A DNA stretch of 64,000 bases, from positions 1 through 64,000 of the forward strand of contig JAKAVQ010000003.1 of assembly GCA_021817245.1 (NCBI GenBank), given 5' to 3'. The notes below the pieces were generated by a model, which ran no database searches, was not told the origin of the DNA, and saw only the letters and a list, made by a program, of their open reading frames with translations. Numbering within the stretch: the stretch's first letter is position 1; each line of letters begins with the position of its first letter. Shown in pieces: positions 822 through 6,541 of the stretch. The position numbers and the translations under genes are program-made. This DNA is from Thermoplasmata archaeon. Lineage in GTDB: Archaea; Thermoplasmatota; Thermoplasmata; Lutacidiplasmatales; UBA184.

Positions 822-1757
822 TCAGGCCACCCGGGCCGGCCCCGGCGAGGAGCTGGGACCGTCCTTGAGTCCGCCGACAAGGTGGATGAGCTCGATCAGG
901 ATATCGCTGCGGGGGGGTTCCTCGAGGGCTCCCCGGCAGAGCGCGTCGACCACGATCACATAGCTCGTCGTCGTCGCAGCACCGACGCTGACCCGCAGGG
1001 ACCCGGGCTGCGTCACCCACGGGTTCTGCCGGAGCCGCTCCTCGGCGAGCGGGAGCAGCACCTTCGGATCGACGTCGGGGGAGACCTCGTACTTCGTACG
1101 CACCCACCGCTCCGCGACGTCGTGAGCGAGCACCGCCGCCTGAATCACGACGTTGTTCGGCAGTCGCACGAGGGTCCCGTCGTCGCGACGAAGGACGGTG
1201 TACGCGATCCCGATCGACCGGAGGACACCGGTAAATCCGATGACGAGGAGGTCGTCCGAGTAGAACTTCGGCGGGTACGCCGGGCCGAGGAACGGGTACT
1301 GCCAGGTCGAGACCGTGATCCGATCCCCTTCCCGGAACGGCCGGACGACGAGCAACGTGACGCCCGCGATGACGTTGCCGAGGGCGGTCTGGGCTGCGAG
1401 GCCGATGACGAGACCGGCGAACGTTCCGCCGGCGAGGAGCGCGGTCCCGTTGATCCCGAGCGCGTAGAGGACCACGAGGACGACCACCACGTAGGCGACG
1501 AGGCGGTACACGTCGAGCACCCGGTAGGCGCGATCCGGGCCGAGTCGCCGCTCCGACTCTCGCCGAAGCGCTCGCCCGACGAAAAGGATCAGGAGGACGC
1601 CGACCCCCGCGACGAGCGCGGCCACGAGATACCGATCGAGGGAGGAAGGGACCACGCCACGGACGCCGAGGAAAAGGTACAGGGTGGCCGCGAGGACGAT
1701 CGCGGCGCCGCTCCCGAGGGCGGCGAGGACCCAGTGGCCCCGATTCGCTGTTGCCAT
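822..1757 (-). CDS. MscS-family small-conductance mechanosensitive channel
   Basis: A 311-aa membrane protein. Three hydrophobic segments lie near residues 8-27, 42-60 and 80-100. A glycine/alanine-rich pore helix follows (GGTFAGLVIGLAAQTALGN), then the MscS beta-domain hallmark VVRPFREGDRITV and the RLPNN motif. The C-terminal alpha/beta domain is present. MscS channels open on membrane tension and release solutes during hypo-osmotic shock. The ATG at 1757 is favoured over longer in-frame starts because a TATA-like box lies 25 nt upstream and the N-terminal extension of the longer frame is arginine-rich and unlike the family. The protein is divergent from DP2. Confidence 0.9.
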   Translation of the reverse strand: MATANRGHWVLAALGSGAAIVLAATLYLFLGVRGVVPSSLDRYLVAALVAGVGVLLILFVGRALRRESERRLGPDRAYRVLDVYRLVAYVVVVLVVLYALGINGTALLAGGTFAGLVIGLAAQTALGNVIAGVTLLVVRPFREGDRITVSTWQYPFLGPAYPPKFYSDDLLVIGFTGVLRSIGIAYTVLRRDDGTLVRLPNNVVIQAAVLAHDVAERWVRTKYEVSPDVDPKVLLPLAEERLRQNPWVTQPGSLRVSVGAATTTSYVIVVDALCRGALEEPPRSDILIELIHLVGGLKDGPSSSPGPARVA

Positions 1758-1778
1758 ACGTCGGGATACCGTACGACG

Positions 1779-1786
1779 CCTATACC
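1779..1786 (-). promoter_or_regulatory. TATA-like box of the MscS gene
   Basis: GGTATAGG on the minus strand is centred about 25-26 nt upstream of the ATG at 1757. That is the spacing expected for a leaderless archaeal transcript. It lies in the spacer between MscS and DP2 and may influence both. Confidence 0.5.
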
Positions 1787-1902
1787 CCTGTCTCGGCGCG
1801 GGGTGTGCGGCGGCTCCCGACCTGCGCGCCGCGGCAGGGCCGGTCCTCTCCGCGTCGGTCCGCCGGTGCGCGTCCCTCTCCAAGAGCGTTCGGCGCACGC
1901 TT

Positions 1903-4900
1903 ATGAGTCGCGACCCTTCTTGCGCTCGCGTGGAGCCGTACTATCGGTCGATCGAGTCGCTCGTCGACCGGGCGTACGGCGCTGCCGGAGCGGCCCGACG
2001 GATCGGTCTCGATCCCGAGATCGCTCCCGAGATCCCGCGCGCGCAGGACATGGCGATGCGAGTCGAGAAGCTGCTCTCGCACTTGCCGATCGCCGGCATC
2101 TCGACCGAGATCCGGGAGCTCGCGACCCGCATGCCGCGGGAGGAGGTCGCGGTCTCGATCGCCCGGCGGCTCGCGCGGGACGAATCGAACGGCGGATCGA
2201 TCGCCTCACGGGTCGATGCGGCGCTGCGGGTCGGGCTGGCCATCCTCACGGAAGGCATTCTCGTCGCTCCGCTCGAGGGGCTCGCCGAGGTCCACGTGCG
2301 GGACGACCGGGGCCGCCCCGGCTACATCGAGCTCTACTACGCGGGGCCGATCCGTGCCGCCGGAGGGACCGCCCAGGCGCTGAGCGTGCTCCTCGCCGAC
2401 ATCGTGCGCCGCGACCTGGGACTCGCTCCGTACCGTCCCGACCGCGAGGAGATCGAGCGGTACAAGGAGGAGATCCCGCTCTACAAGTACCATCAGCACC
2501 TCCAGTACGTCCCAACACCCGAGGAGATCGCGCTCGTCGTGCGAAACGTCCCGGTCGCGATCTCGGGGGAGTCGACCGAAGGCGACGCCGAGGTCAGCGC
2601 CTTCCGGGATCTCCCGAGGGTTCGCACGAACGGGATCCGCGGAGGCGCCTGCCTCGTCGTCGCGGAGGGGCTCTGCCAGAAGGCATCGAAGCTCCGCAAG
2701 GTCGTGGAGAAGCTCGGCCTCGACGGTTGGGAGTTCCTCGCCGAGCTCGGGCACCGCTCGCCGGACGAGGAGGAAGCGCACACGCCGAAGTACCTGCAGG
2801 ACTCCGTCGGGGGTCGCCCGGTGCTCGCCCATCCGAGCCACCCCGGCGGGTTCCGACTCGTCTACGGCCGGTCCCGCACCACCGGGCTTGCGGCCTGCGC
2901 CGTGAATCCGGCCACGATGGTGATCCTGCAGCACTTCGTCGCGATCGGCACCCAGGTGAAGCTCGAGTACCCGGGCAAGGCGACGGCCATGGCGGTCTGC
3001 GACACCGTCGAGGGGCCGATCGTGGAGCTCGACGACGGCAGCGTCACCGCGGTCCACGACCTCGACCGGGCCGAGGCGCTCCGCTCGCGGGTCCGTCGCA
3101 TCGTCGATCTCGGCGAGCTGCTCGTCTCGTTCGGGGAGTTTCTGGAGAATAACCGCGCCCTCGTCCCCGGCGCCTACGCGATCGACTGGCATCTCGAGGA
3201 ATTGCGGACCGCCGGCCTCGACCCCACGATTGCCGGAGCCCCGGCGACCTACGCAGAGGCCGTGTCCCTCTCCCGAGCCCACGACGTGCCGCTCCACCCG
3301 CGGTGGCTCCTCTTCTGGCACGACCTTACGACCGCCGAGATCCGCGCGCTCTCGGAGTTCGTCGAGCGGACCGGTCGCTGGGTGGGATCCTCGGTCGAGC
3401 TGCCGGCCGATCCCGCGTGGCGGGACGCCCTCGAGCGCCTCGGTTTTCTCTTCTATCCGGTGGAAGGCGATCGCTGGCGGGGGGAGCCCGACCCGAGCGC
3501 CGGCCTCCTCGGCGGACTCGGGCTCGAACCGTCCGAGGGGATCCTGATCCGGCGGGCGCCGCTCGACCCGGACGAGACCGACCCGATCCGCTTCGTCTCC
3601 CGCCTCGCGGGGGTCACGGTCCGCGCTCGCAGCCCTTCCCGCATCGGGGGACGGGTCGGACGACCGGAGAAGGCGTACCAGCGGACGATGCAGCCAAACG
3701 TCCACGGGCTCTTTCCCGTCGGTGGGGCGGGCGGCCCGAGCCGTTCGGTCCCCGAAGCGGCGCGTCGGTCGATGCGGGACGGGGTCGCGGTCGACCTCGG
3801 AACGCGACACTGCCCGGCCTGCGGGAAGACGACGGTATGGAACCGGTGCCCCTGCGGCGCCCATACGGACGTGACCGAGACGGTCGTTCGGCAGCCGCTT
3901 CCGGTCGCCCGTCTCTGGAGCGATGCCCTCTCGCGGCTCCATCTTGTCAAGGTCCCGGTCGTGAAGGGGGTGAAGGGGCTGACCTCTCCCCGGAAGGTGC
4001 CGGAACCGATCGAGAAGGGGATCCTGAGAGCAGTGCACGGCATCTCGGTCTACCAGGACGGCACCGCCCGGTTCGACCTCACGGACCTGCCGCTCACCCA
4101 CTTTCGGCCCACGGAGATCGGCACCGATCTTCCGACCCTGCGCCGGCTCGGCTACGAGTGGGACTGGACCGGCGCGGAGCTCACGGATCCGGAGCAGCTG
4201 GTCGAGCTCGCGCCGCAGGACCTCATCGTCTCGCGGTCGTGCGGGGAGTACCTGACCCGGCTCGCCCAGTTCGTCGACGACGAGCTCGTGCGGTTCTACA
4301 ACCTCGATCCGTTCTACTCTGCCGATCGGCCCGAACAGCTCGTGGGACAGATCGTGGTGGCGCTGGCGCCCCACACTTCGGGAGGGGTCGCCGGCCGGCT
4401 CCTCGGCTTCACGGATGCCGAGGCGTGCTTTGCCCACCCGGTCTTCCACGCCGCGAAGCGGCGAAACTGTGACGGTGACGAGGACTCCGTCACCCTCCTG
4501 CTCGACGCCCTCCTCAACTTCTCCCGCTCCTACCTGCCCGAGAGCCGGGGGGCGCTCATGGACAAGCCCCTCGTGCTCACGACGCGGCTCGTCGCGACCG
4601 AGGTGGACAAGGAGGCCCACAACGTCGATGTGGCGAGCCATCACGGGCTCGCGCTCTACCGGGCCGCGGCCGAAGGGCGGATGGCGAAGGAGATCGAGCC
4701 GATGCTCGAACTCGTCGCGCATCGCCTGGACTCCCCTCGGGCGCTCTCGGGGTACGGATTCACCCACGACACCTCGCGGATCGCCGGCGGGCCCGTGCGG
4801 TCGGCCTACCGGGACGGGCGGTCGATGACCGACATGGTCGAGCGGTCCGTGCTGCTCGCGAGCCAGATCCGGGCGGTCGACGTCGCCGAGGCGGTGACCC

Positions 4901-5268
4901 TGGTCCTGAATGCGCACTTTCTGCCCGACGTCATGGGCAACCTGAAGAGCTACGCGACGCAGAGCTTCCGCTGCAAGGAGTGCGGGGCGAGCTACCGCCG
5001 CCCGCCGCTCACGGGGCGGTGCGGAGCGGCGGCGCCGGGCCGGGGGAAGTGCGACGGCGAGCTCCTCTCGACGGTCTACGAGGCTTCCGTCCGCAAGTAC
5101 CTCCCGCTCTCCCAGCGGCTCGGGGAGATCGACGGGATCACCCCGTACGTCCGCCAGCGGATCCAGATCCTCTCCGACTCGGTCGCGACGCTCTTTCCGG
5201 GGTCGACCGCCCAGACCACGCTCGATCGGTACCGGCCGGGCCCCGCGGCCGCGGTCGGGGGAAGCTAG
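1903..5268 (+). CDS. polC: DNA polymerase D (Pol II) large catalytic subunit DP2
   Basis: At 1121 aa this is typical for DP2, the catalytic subunit of the archaeal replicative D-family polymerase, which has a double-psi beta-barrel fold like RNA polymerase. The N-terminal domain with EIYYAGPIRAAGGTAQALSV-like sequence is conserved (here ELYYAGPIRAAGGTAQ). A zinc site CPACG...CPC lies near 637-655. The catalytic motif N-C-D-G-D-E-D is at 855-861, where most DP2 proteins have NADGDED. A C-terminal zinc module CKEC...C...C lies near 1025-1053. No intein interrupts it, although DP2 genes often carry one. The ATG at 1903 fits the family N-terminus; the open frame upstream to 1684 is arginine-rich shadow. 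The small exonuclease subunit DP1 is not in the window. Confidence 0.97.
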   Translation: MSRDPSCARVEPYYRSIESLVDRAYGAAGAARRIGLDPEIAPEIPRAQDMAMRVEKLLSHLPIAGISTEIRELATRMPREEVAVSIARRLARDESNGGSIASRVDAALRVGLAILTEGILVAPLEGLAEVHVRDDRGRPGYIELYYAGPIRAAGGTAQALSVLLADIVRRDLGLAPYRPDREEIERYKEEIPLYKYHQHLQYVPTPEEIALVVRNVPVAISGESTEGDAEVSAFRDLPRVRTNGIRGGACLVVAEGLCQKASKLRKVVEKLGLDGWEFLAELGHRSPDEEEAHTPKYLQDSVGGRPVLAHPSHPGGFRLVYGRSRTTGLAACAVNPATMVILQHFVAIGTQVKLEYPGKATAMAVCDTVEGPIVELDDGSVTAVHDLDRAEALRSRVRRIVDLGELLVSFGEFLENNRALVPGAYAIDWHLEELRTAGLDPTIAGAPATYAEAVSLSRAHDVPLHPRWLLFWHDLTTAEIRALSEFVERTGRWVGSSVELPADPAWRDALERLGFLFYPVEGDRWRGEPDPSAGLLGGLGLEPSEGILIRRAPLDPDETDPIRFVSRLAGVTVRARSPSRIGGRVGRPEKAYQRTMQPNVHGLFPVGGAGGPSRSVPEAARRSMRDGVAVDLGTRHCPACGKTTVWNRCPCGAHTDVTETVVRQPLPVARLWSDALSRLHLVKVPVVKGVKGLTSPRKVPEPIEKGILRAVHGISVYQDGTARFDLTDLPLTHFRPTEIGTDLPTLRRLGYEWDWTGAELTDPEQLVELAPQDLIVSRSCGEYLTRLAQFVDDELVRFYNLDPFYSADRPEQLVGQIVVALAPHTSGGVAGRLLGFTDAEACFAHPVFHAAKRRNCDGDEDSVTLLLDALLNFSRSYLPESRGALMDKPLVLTTRLVATEVDKEAHNVDVASHHGLALYRAAAEGRMAKEIEPMLELVAHRLDSPRALSGYGFTHDTSRIAGGPVRSAYRDGRSMTDMVERSVLLASQIRAVDVAEAVTLVLNAHFLPDVMGNLKSYATQSFRCKECGASYRRPPLTGRCGAAAPGRGKCDGELLSTVYEASVRKYLPLSQRLGEIDGITPYVRQRIQILSDSVATLFPGSTAQTTLDRYRPGPAAAVGGS

Positions 5269-5285: not shown

Positions 5286-5290
5286 AAATA
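5286..5290 (+). promoter_or_regulatory. TATA-like box of tRNA-Arg
   Basis: AAATA in an otherwise G+C-rich stretch is centred 28 nt before the mature tRNA 5' end, as expected for an archaeal tRNA promoter. Confidence 0.5.
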
Positions 5291-5315
5291 GGCCGGTCCC
5301 GTGCGCCCGTCCGTC

Positions 5316-5416
5316 GGGCTTGTGGGGTAGTCTGGACTATCCTGTTGGCCTTCGAAGCCAACGACCTGGGTTCGAATTCGCCGGCGATCGCCGCGACGGA
5401 ACTCCCAGCAAGCCCG
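5316..5416 (+). tRNA. tRNA-Arg(UCG) with a 26-nt intron in the T-loop
   Basis: The acceptor stem GGGCTTG (5316-5322) pairs perfectly with CAAGCCC (5409-5415), and G5416 is the discriminator. The D-arm starts T8-G9-GGGTAG and has G18G19 at 5334-5335. The anticodon stem TTGGC/GCCAA encloses the loop CTTCGAA with anticodon TCG (5352-5354), so it reads CGA-type arginine codons. The variable loop is four bases. The T-stem CTGGG (5366-5370) pairs perfectly with CCCAG (5404-5408), but 33 nt lie between the arms instead of 7. Removing 5377-5402 leaves a standard loop TTCGAAT. CCA is not encoded. A simple scan without T-loop intron support would miss this gene. Confidence 0.93.
5377..5402 (+). other. 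tRNA intron at position 59/60 with canonical bulge-helix-bulge
   Basis: The precursor folds into an exact 3-4-3 bulge-helix-bulge. The outer helix is the T-stem CTGGG/CCCAG. The 4-bp central helix is TTCG (5371-5374) with CGGA (5397-5400), including one U-G pair. The 5' bulge is AAT (5375-5377) and the 3' bulge is ACT (5401-5403). The inner helix is TCGC (5378-5381) with GCGA (5393-5396), extended by GGC/GCC around a GATC loop with one bulged C. Splicing between the second and third base of each bulge, as archaeal tRNA endonuclease does, removes 26 nt and restores TTCGAAT. Confidence 0.88.
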
Positions 5417-5584: not shown

Positions 5585-6541
5585 GTGGACGCAACCGAGC
5601 AAGTCGTCAATCTGATGCAGGCAGCGACCGTGCTGCTGCTCTCGCCGCTCCTCGCGGGGGTCCTGGCCCGCTTCAAGGCCTGGACGGAGTCCCGACAGGG
5701 TCCGTCGATCTTCCAGCCCTACTTCGACCTGCGCAAGTACCTCCGTAAGGAGACGCTTCTGCCCGACGGCGCCTCGCGCGTCTTCGTCCTGGTCCCGTAC
5801 GTCTCCTTCGGGACGTACCTCGTGATCTCGGTCGTCGTGCCGATCATCACGCCGTATCCCATCCCGTTCGCCTCGACCGTCGACTTCCTCGGGGGCGGGC
5901 TCCTCTTCGGGCTCGCGGGTACCTTGGCACTGCTCGCGGCGCTCGACTCGGGCAGCAACTACGCCGCCCTCGGCGCAAGCCGCACAGCCACCTTCGCCGC
6001 CTTCGCCGAGCCGACGCTGATCATCGTGTTCTTCGCCGTGGCCGTGATTACTGGAACGAACAACCCGTACGTCACGAACCACCTCCTCGCCTCCTCCGCG
6101 TCCGCGTACCTGTCGCCGACCCACCTCTTGGTGACCGGCGCGTTCTTCCTCCTGCTCCTCGCCGAGACGGGCAAGCTGCCGGTCGAGAGCGCCGGTCTCA
6201 TGGAGTTCGGGATGCTCGAAGAGGGACGCTCCTTCGAGCACTCCGGCCGCCTGCTCGGCCTCCTGCGCTGGAACGGCTGGATGAAGCAGTTCCTGCTGTA
6301 CTCGGTCTTCCTCAACGTCTTCGCCGTGCCGTGGGGGATGATCGCGGCACCGACCGTCTTCGGTGCGGCGGAGAACGTCGGGCTCCTCCTCGCGAAACTG
6401 CTGCTCCTCGCCGGGGGGCTCGCCTTGCTCGAGGCGACGATCGCGAAGGTCCGGCTGTTCAAGATCCGGGATTTCCTCACGCTCTCCTTCTCGCTCGCGA
6501 TCCTCTCGGTCTTCGCGTTCGCGGTCCTGGGGGTGGCGTAG
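5585..6541 (+). CDS. hyfC: Hyf/complex I membrane subunit, NuoH/HycD-HyfC type
   Basis: A 318-aa protein with about eight membrane helices that matches the NuoH/HyfC family linking the ion-pumping arm to the peripheral arm. The first cytoplasmic loop has the family signature RFKAWTESRQGPS followed by QPYFDLRKYLRKE. Near residue 195 the acidic loop AETGKLPVE corresponds to the conserved quinone-cavity or coupling loop of NuoH. The GTG at 5585 is chosen because the protein starts directly at the first helix. It is the first gene of a six-gene operon with overlapping or near-adjacent junctions. Upstream lies about 170 nt of leader or spacer after the tRNA, with a possible TATA-like CTAAGTA near 5473. 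Confidence 0.9.
   Translation: MDATEQVVNLMQAATVLLLSPLLAGVLARFKAWTESRQGPSIFQPYFDLRKYLRKETLLPDGASRVFVLVPYVSFGTYLVISVVVPIITPYPIPFASTVDFLGGGLLFGLAGTLALLAALDSGSNYAALGASRTATFAAFAEPTLIIVFFAVAVITGTNNPYVTNHLLASSASAYLSPTHLLVTGAFFLLLLAETGKLPVESAGLMEFGMLEEGRSFEHSGRLLGLLRWNGWMKQFLLYSVFLNVFAVPWGMIAAPTVFGAAENVGLLLAKLLLLAGGLALLEATIAKVRLFKIRDFLTLSFSLAILSVFAFAVLGVA

Follow-up and report, generated by a model that had tools for sequence, protein, structure and literature searches.

A tRNA-Arg(UCG) gene with an intron in the T-loop

The stretch of 64,000 nucleotides analysed here (the window) contains, at 5316-5416 on the forward strand, what is almost certainly a functional tRNA-Arg(UCG) gene with an archaeal bulge-helix-bulge (BHB) intron at position 59/60, with splicing predicted to be carried out by the endonuclease EndA and the ligase RtcB. 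The source is a 2.31-Mb MAG, 92.9% complete, of a Lutacidiplasmatales-type member of Thermoplasmata, which agrees with the euryarchaeal character that an earlier reading made from the letters alone (the sequence-only reading) had ascribed to this genome. The intron itself is of a kind already known, 59/60 being among the intron positions listed in the available text of PMC4090602. We infer its transcription, cleavage and ligation, as well as its ancestry, from the evidence set out below. The features of the locus and of its neighbours are as follows.

1684-5268, + strand: gene for the DNA polymerase II large subunit DP2, upstream (Pfam PolC_DP2 N-terminal, central and catalytic domains)
5286-5291, + strand: TATA-like box AAATAG, 25-30 nt upstream of tRNA-Arg(UCG)
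5316-5416, + strand: tRNA-Arg(UCG) gene, with a 26-nt insert in the T-loop
5316-5376, + strand: 5' exon, from the acceptor stem to A59 (sequence; alignment of 37)
5352-5354, + strand: anticodon TCG, in a 6-bp anticodon stem with the 7-nt loop CTTCGAA; ARAGORN gives Arg(tcg) before and after splicing in silico
5366-5370, + strand: 5' strand of the T-stem, CTGGG, which is the outer BHB helix (partner 5404-5408)
5371-5374, + strand: exon side of the central BHB helix, TTCG, bases 54-57 (partner 5397-5400)
5375-5377, + strand: 5' bulge AA/T, with the predicted 5' splice site at 5376/5377; a 3-nt bulge in the RNAalifold consensus
5377-5402, + strand: 26-nt intron at T-loop position 59/60 (sequence; orthologous introns keep the register)
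5378-5396, + strand: intron hairpin, with the helix TCGC/GCGA (5378-5381 with 5393-5396)
5397-5400, + strand: intron side of the central BHB helix, CGGA (alignment of 37 and RNAalifold consensus)
5401-5403, + strand: 3' bulge AC/T, with the predicted 3' splice site at 5402/5403; a 3-nt bulge in the RNAalifold consensus
5403-5416, + strand: 3' exon with T60, the 3' strands of T-stem and acceptor, and the discriminator G; restores a 5-bp T-stem and a 7-bp acceptor
5585-6541, + strand: NADH dehydrogenase subunit (NuoH-like), downstream (Pfam NADHdh, 8.3e-29)

The DP2 start at 1684 is the listed start of the open reading frame, and the true start may lie later. CGA codons are read by the UCG anticodon, and since the adjoining DP2 frame contains 10 of them, this anticodon is needed.

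Acceptor (GGGCTTG/CAAGCCC, 7 bp), anticodon stem and T-stem (CTGGG/CCCAG, 5 bp) are intact, with the 26 extra bases confined to the T-loop, as the sequence-only reading had described. The insert forms an exact 3-4-3 BHB, i.e., two 3-nt bulges around a 4-bp helix at the exon-intron junctions, in which the central helix TTCG/CGGA has one U-G among its pairs, and cuts after the second base of each bulge would restore the T-loop TTCGAAT, the T-stem (5/5) and the acceptor (7/7). The proposed BHB at 59/60 is thus present both in the sequence and in the consensus of 37 sequences considered below. The inner pairs of the intron helix are interrupted in the window's intron. When the insert was shuffled with its dinucleotides kept, 19 of 5000 shuffles did as well at that register, both in the central helix and in the run of intron-helix pairs; the pairing exceeds chance by this measure, and the orthologue alignment is far stronger support. 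The MFE fold of the lone 101-nt precursor RNA is other than a cloverleaf with a BHB, so the structure is absent from the single-sequence fold and is seen in the comparative one; the single-sequence MFE was therefore dropped as a candidate for the true structure.

In the mechanism that we propose, the T-stem, the 4-bp helix of bases 54-57 with the 3' part of the intron, and the intron hairpin would position the two 3-nt bulges in the precursor. The fused EndA would then cut both bulges, at 5376/5377 and 5402/5403, and RtcB would ligate the exons into the seven-base loop.

Conservation of the intron among orthologues

Relatives of the DP2 protein mostly carry the name Thermoplasmata archaeon and include UBA184 (78%) and Candidatus Lutacidiplasma silvani AcS3-62 (67%), and in the latter, tRNA-Arg(UCG) likewise stands beside DP2 (L074, 7483-7595). 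These coordinates recur in a genome assigned to the window's own genus (G025, C20:7483-7595), which is probably that of AcS3-62, and on this ground the window is assigned to the Lutacidiplasmatales family (f1 among the family codes used here). Among 41 DP2 loci surveyed, the complete tRNA-Arg(UCG) gene was found in 36, all of them with the intron (36/36) and none intronless. As for the incomplete cases, one locus has only the start of the tRNA before a contig end cuts the remainder (L065), one extends just 62 nt beyond DP2 (L062), two stop within DP2 (L067 and L085), and at one DP2 locus no tRNA-Arg(UCG) was found (L072).

The alignment of 37 rows (the window and 36 orthologues) was not fitted to the structure, while an alternative alignment (A2) was left out, its introns being misaligned. 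The exons are nearly invariant and the sequence and length of the intron vary, with the register kept. RNAalifold, run de novo with no structure supplied, returned the 3-4-3 BHB as the consensus. All four pairs of the central helix are formed in 37/37 rows; in this Arg(UCG) set two of the pairs are invariant and two have one-sided changes only, which means no covariation there. The outer helix (T-stem) is also paired in 37/37 rows, with double changes in two of its five pairs, and the intron helix has both-sided changes in all six pairs counted, with 91.9% of its cells paired. For the whole structure, 98.5% of cells are paired in comparison with 91.0% in shuffles and 35-52% in slid registers, and none of 500 shuffles was as well paired. 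A TATA-like element is kept too: its first base falls between -28 and -31 in 35/37 rows, which have AAATA or TATA, and the other two have TTAATA and CTTTTA, at -31 and -32. Judged from these sequences, selection maintains the BHB structure as the intron sequence drifts.

T-loop introns in the source genome

A scan of the genome with RF00005 (E up to 10) gave 44 matches, all tRNA-like on reading, and four loci were added by R2, a covariance model built from T-loop-intron tRNAs (in which Gly is represented by an incomplete sequence, L122, and Ser(CGA), L041, has no row), which brings the total to 48 tRNA loci. T-loop introns are present in 15 of these, namely in Ser(GCT), Ser(GGA), Ser(CGA), Glu(CTC), two Asn(GTT), Arg(TCT), Arg(TCG), Ala(GGC), Gly(TCC), Gln(CTG), Asp(GTC), Lys(TTT), His(GTG) and Leu(TAG), so that the forecast of further such introns was borne out by 14 others. 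In all 15, predicted splicing brings back a T-stem of 5 bp and an acceptor of 7 bp. By position, the genome has 15 inserts in the T-loop versus six in the D-loop region and four at 37/38; Lys and Leu(TAG) have a D-loop insert in addition to the T-loop intron. In single-intron shuffle tests, the observed pairing was matched by 0 to 639 of 5000 shuffles; the results were weakest for Ser(GGA), Ser(CGA), one Asn copy (L036) and Asp, and for those four it is the common register and the relatives that make the case.

This inventory bears on the view that the window's locus is a pseudo-tRNA, i.e., a dead copy broken by the insertion, with a working Arg(UCG) gene elsewhere. We consider this extremely improbable. 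Although the locus scores under the cut-off of the Rfam tRNA model (19.8 bits, cut-off 29), and another copy could be missing from a MAG of this completeness, the intron is kept in every complete orthologue, with nearly unchanged exons and compensatory changes in the intron helix. Moreover, T-loop introns occur in the sole Asp and His tRNAs found, and in both Asn tRNAs. A second complete tRNA-Arg(UCG), which the sequence-only reading had named as the sign of a pseudo-tRNA, is absent from the RF00005 and R2 inventory of the 92.9% complete MAG. The tRNAs Trp(CCA) and Pro(CGG) were found by neither RF00005 nor R2, and are either missing from the assembly or hidden by introns.

Other inserts were seen in the same genome. 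Those of the D-loop region (L038, L040, L039, L046, L125 and L126) are in two Arg(GCG), one Met(CAT), Lys(TTT), Pro(TGG) and Leu(TAG), and GGGTAGCTACGGG opens the insert of the Arg(GCG) genes and of Pro(TGG). Four other genes, for Met(CAT), Tyr(GTA), Glu(TTC) and Leu(TAA) (L021, L022, L025 and L026), have an insert in the anticodon loop, apparently at 37/38; L025 was called Arg(tcg) by ARAGORN and was rejected as a second Arg(UCG), since its stem-loop, by eye, reads as Glu(UUC) with a 37/38 insert. Two similar tandems of Asn(GTT), with its T-loop intron, followed by a CAT tRNA (C17:18480-18678 and C15:20257-20455) both lie near contig ends, as though a repeat broke the assembly. A link of the introns to protection from mobile elements was also considered, to no effect. 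The genome has five phage-integrase matches, and by coordinates none of them adjoins a T-loop-intron tRNA, an observation that is neutral on such a link.

The intron set of the Lutacidiplasmatales family

The family was sampled with ten genomes from seven genera, the source genome included. In the nine further genomes, 123 R2 matches had an E of 1e-7 or lower; 27 of them measured about 73-76 nt and 96 were longer, and each of the 96 longer ones was read as a T-loop intron in the same register. Together with the 15 of the source genome, this makes 111 T-loop introns, all at one position, with lengths of 26-47 nt (median 32). Since loci for reading were picked by length (about 93 nt or more), the 96/96, as well as the 11/11 and 34/34 given below, are conditional on that choice. 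The R2 E-value by itself does not establish a T-loop intron, since in genome G004 a tRNA of 75 nt with no intron reaches 5.2e-11, so only loci read in sequence were counted. According to automatic anticodon calls, which are unreliable where a T-loop tRNA has a further insert (e.g., L276, L280 and L285), the intron is present in 10/10 genomes for Ala(GGC), Asp(GTC) and Gly(TCC), and in 9/10 for Arg(TCG), Arg(TCT), Gln(CTG), His and Asn. From this near-universal presence, most of the set is probably older than the family's genera, and the Arg(UCG) intron of the window would be one member of a one-position T-loop set that is, for the most part, probably ancestral to the family.

Across the 111 introns, loop bases 54-57 pair with the intron in 86.0% of cases at the predicted register versus 68.7% and 53.8% at one-base slides, and of the first four intron-helix pairs a mean of 3.53 are formed versus 1.72 in shuffles. 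The first bulge is AAN in 110/111, and the second has a terminal T in 110/111. An insert retained in the mature tRNA as a stable expansion segment, with an enlarged T-loop, is very unlikely in the light of these bulges and of the spread of insert lengths from 26 to 47. While the insert is able to form a hairpin, its 3-4-3 geometry and its pairing with 54-57 are features that EndA recognises and would occupy the normal T-loop bases, and genes for both EndA and RtcB (1.3e-171) are present in the genome.

In the central helix, exon base 57 covaries with the facing intron base: G57 stands opposite C in 49/52, and A57 opposite G in 48/59, T in 8/59 and C in 1/59, although the rows are kin by descent, so the Fisher value for this covariation is not a clean probability. 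All four pairs are formed in 52 of the central helices and 59 are imperfect; A57-G is the sole defect in 46 of the latter, and the remaining 13, among which are five Asn, depart from full pairing in other ways.

Occurrence across Thermoplasmata

In families f2 and f3 of the same order, each of the 11 long rows read had a T-loop intron, in several cases next to a second insert; the read set leaves aside some twenty other long rows of f2/f3, plus other long rows of the class sample. Outside the order, 34/34 long rows read were T-loop introns, spread over 12 families (f5, f6, f7, f8, f9, f10, f13, f15, f18, f20, f22 and f25) and often in Arg(TCT) or Lys(TTT). Of the 25 family codes that the sample of Thermoplasmata covers, at least 15 thus have T-loop introns. 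Outside the Lutacidiplasmatales family 45 introns were read, some of them near-identical; 39 of these pair 4/4 centrally, and the six others are A-G cases in f2 and f22. In the 120-genome class sample, R2 matched 91 genomes at an E of 1e-9 or lower, a cut-off that is no proof on its own, and none of the 91 is from f16, f12 or f24. When R2 was run on ten genomes of these three families at a cut-off of 1e-4, all rows were 75 nt or shorter among the matches listed (the best part of 258). Three f3 tRNAs (L138, L156 and L127) have an anticodon-loop insert together with a very short T-loop intron (13-14 nt).

The splicing endonuclease

EndA is a protein of 354 aa encoded by one ORF (C9:46347-47408), with two tRNA_int_endo domains; a search of the genome with an E cut-off of 10 brought up no others. 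In the second domain Y292, H300 and K331, which we take to be catalytic by analogy with A. fulgidus, are invariant in 23/23 orthologues, and so are R324 and R351; the first repeat, by eye, is without Tyr or His at the matching places. In enzymes of broad specificity, the CSL or ASL loop is an insertion that separates the conserved YG motif from the LSL strand and includes a conserved Lys. The first half of the protein is without the extra residues that A. pernix has at this site, and the catalytic half has no insertion there when aligned with A. fulgidus, whereas its alignment with A. pernix begins past the site. No CSL/ASL-type insertion is present in the alignment of 23 EndA orthologues. With R351 aligned to an A. 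pernix Trp as well, the sequence points to a plain alpha-prime2 enzyme. The AlphaFold2 monomer model (mean pLDDT 92.6) is closest in fold to the EndA fusion of Methanopyrus kandleri (5x89, TM-score by target 0.91) and to EndA of Archaeoglobus fulgidus (2gjw, 0.89), yet at 28-29% identity. Taken together, this points to an alpha-prime2-type fused two-domain protein with no visible crenarchaeal or ARMAN specificity loop.

According to the available text of PMC6379350, the alpha-prime2 enzymes of A. fulgidus and T. acidophilum are narrow, the two-subunit enzyme of M. kandleri is broad within constraints, and the broad specificity of A. pernix and ARMAN-2 is credited to loops. In the part of PMC8707768 at hand, homodimeric enzymes are described as cutting BHL-like motifs too, and the homodimeric EndA of Ferroplasma cleaves a minimal BHB at 30 C. 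The sequence-only reading had supposed an endonuclease of broad specificity. What was found is a single fused enzyme, most like the M. kandleri fusion and A. fulgidus, without a crenarchaeal-type loop, and the strict BHB of the Arg(UCG) intron fits a narrow enzyme acting at an unusual position, so the supposition is not required for this intron. It may still matter family-wide, where 59 of the 111 central helices are imperfect and the A57-G introns need some tolerance of the enzyme.

It is possible, though less likely than not, that the introns are real and that EndA became broad by a route besides the known loops and drove the whole intron set, which is compatible with the explanation preferred for the Arg(UCG) intron. 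The imperfect helices of the family, 46 of them by A57-G alone, speak for this, but most introns read beyond the family (39 of 45) pair fully, and the loop-site alignment to A. fulgidus shows no insertion, with R351 at the A. pernix Trp position. The class sample can be read in both directions. In the 120 genomes, the EndA matches of f16, f12 and f24 are weak (E 5.6e-9 to 2.5e-21; open frames of 289-326 aa), while other class genomes with an EndA match reach 5.3e-40 or better. The longer EndA (about 350 aa) and T-loop introns tend to co-occur across the class: many of the families with the longer protein have such introns, and the three with the short, divergent one have none among the matches listed. 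However, among the 20 listed genomes that R2 did not match, seven belong to longer-EndA families, and five genomes without an EndA match have R2 matches, perhaps via assembly gaps; the co-occurrence may possibly reflect a single clade split.

A more far-reaching reading, with chances a little below even, is that Thermoplasmata have old and widespread T-loop introns at one position, that these were expanded in Lutacidiplasmatales (to about a third of tRNA loci in the source genome), and that a two-domain EndA without any of the known specificity loops tolerates the recurrent non-Watson-Crick pair A57-G. If this is true, diversity of intron position would be independent of heteromeric or loop-bearing enzymes, and there would be another route to relaxed BHB recognition. 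A class with a fused EndA and widespread T-loop introns offers a direct test of the rule that links position to enzyme, and the recurrent A57-G mismatch is a concrete RNA feature for enzyme assays.

Relation to known systems

Numerous non-canonical introns are known from Thermoproteales (PMC8450103, available text), and the sequence-only reading had regarded introns such as this one as mainly a Thermoproteales matter. This is too narrow, as dense non-canonical introns are reported for Asgard archaea (PMC11291895) and some for three thermophilic euryarchaeal methanogens (PMC3218864), both according to the parts of these papers at hand, with Thermoplasmata added here. In the text seen of PMC4090602, PMC4033280 and PMC12397907, positions other than 37/38 are tied to heteromeric or loop-bearing endonucleases, and the first of these states that Euryarchaeota with alpha4 or alpha2 enzymes have one intron at the canonical position, with less than 10% of tRNA genes bearing introns. 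The present reading contradicts that rule, as it is stated there.

The T-loop introns share with the 59/60 introns of Crenarchaeota (e.g., Thermoproteales) the BHB, the several intron-bearing tRNAs per genome and the occasional tRNA with two introns, but here the host is a member of Thermoplasmatota, EndA is fused, and the introns are concentrated at one position. With the canonical 37/38 introns of Euryarchaeota they share the strict 3-4-3 BHB and an alpha-prime2-type EndA, while the position differs. Atabeyarchaeia and Freyarchaeia (Asgard) also have many tRNA genes with non-canonical and multiple introns; they belong to another phylum and, in the available text of PMC11291895, 92-95% of their tRNA genes have introns, a comparison that concerns intron density only. 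Our literature searches returned no paper on T-loop introns in Thermoplasmata, though older reports are possible. As far as these searches show, the wide one-position occurrence in Thermoplasmata, the expansion in Lutacidiplasmatales, the fused-EndA context and the A57-G pattern are apparently new.

Detection of intron-bearing tRNAs

The paper naming Lutacidiplasmatales (PMC9287336) obtained tRNA genes by tRNAscan-SE, and in the main text, as available, the word "intron" is absent. At the Arg(UCG) locus, ARAGORN gave a wrong gene end (5392), and a Rfam scan at the gathering cut-off yielded nothing useful. Of the 15 T-loop-intron tRNAs of the source genome, the Rfam tRNA model placed six below its cut-off and missed two others, and ARAGORN missed 11 (trimmed segments, intron option off). 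ARAGORN gave the expected anticodon for 4/15 before splicing in silico versus 14/15 after it, its one failure being Lys, with its D-loop insert. As T-loop introns hide tRNAs in this way, claims on tRNA-based completeness and codon usage for these soil archaea may be off.
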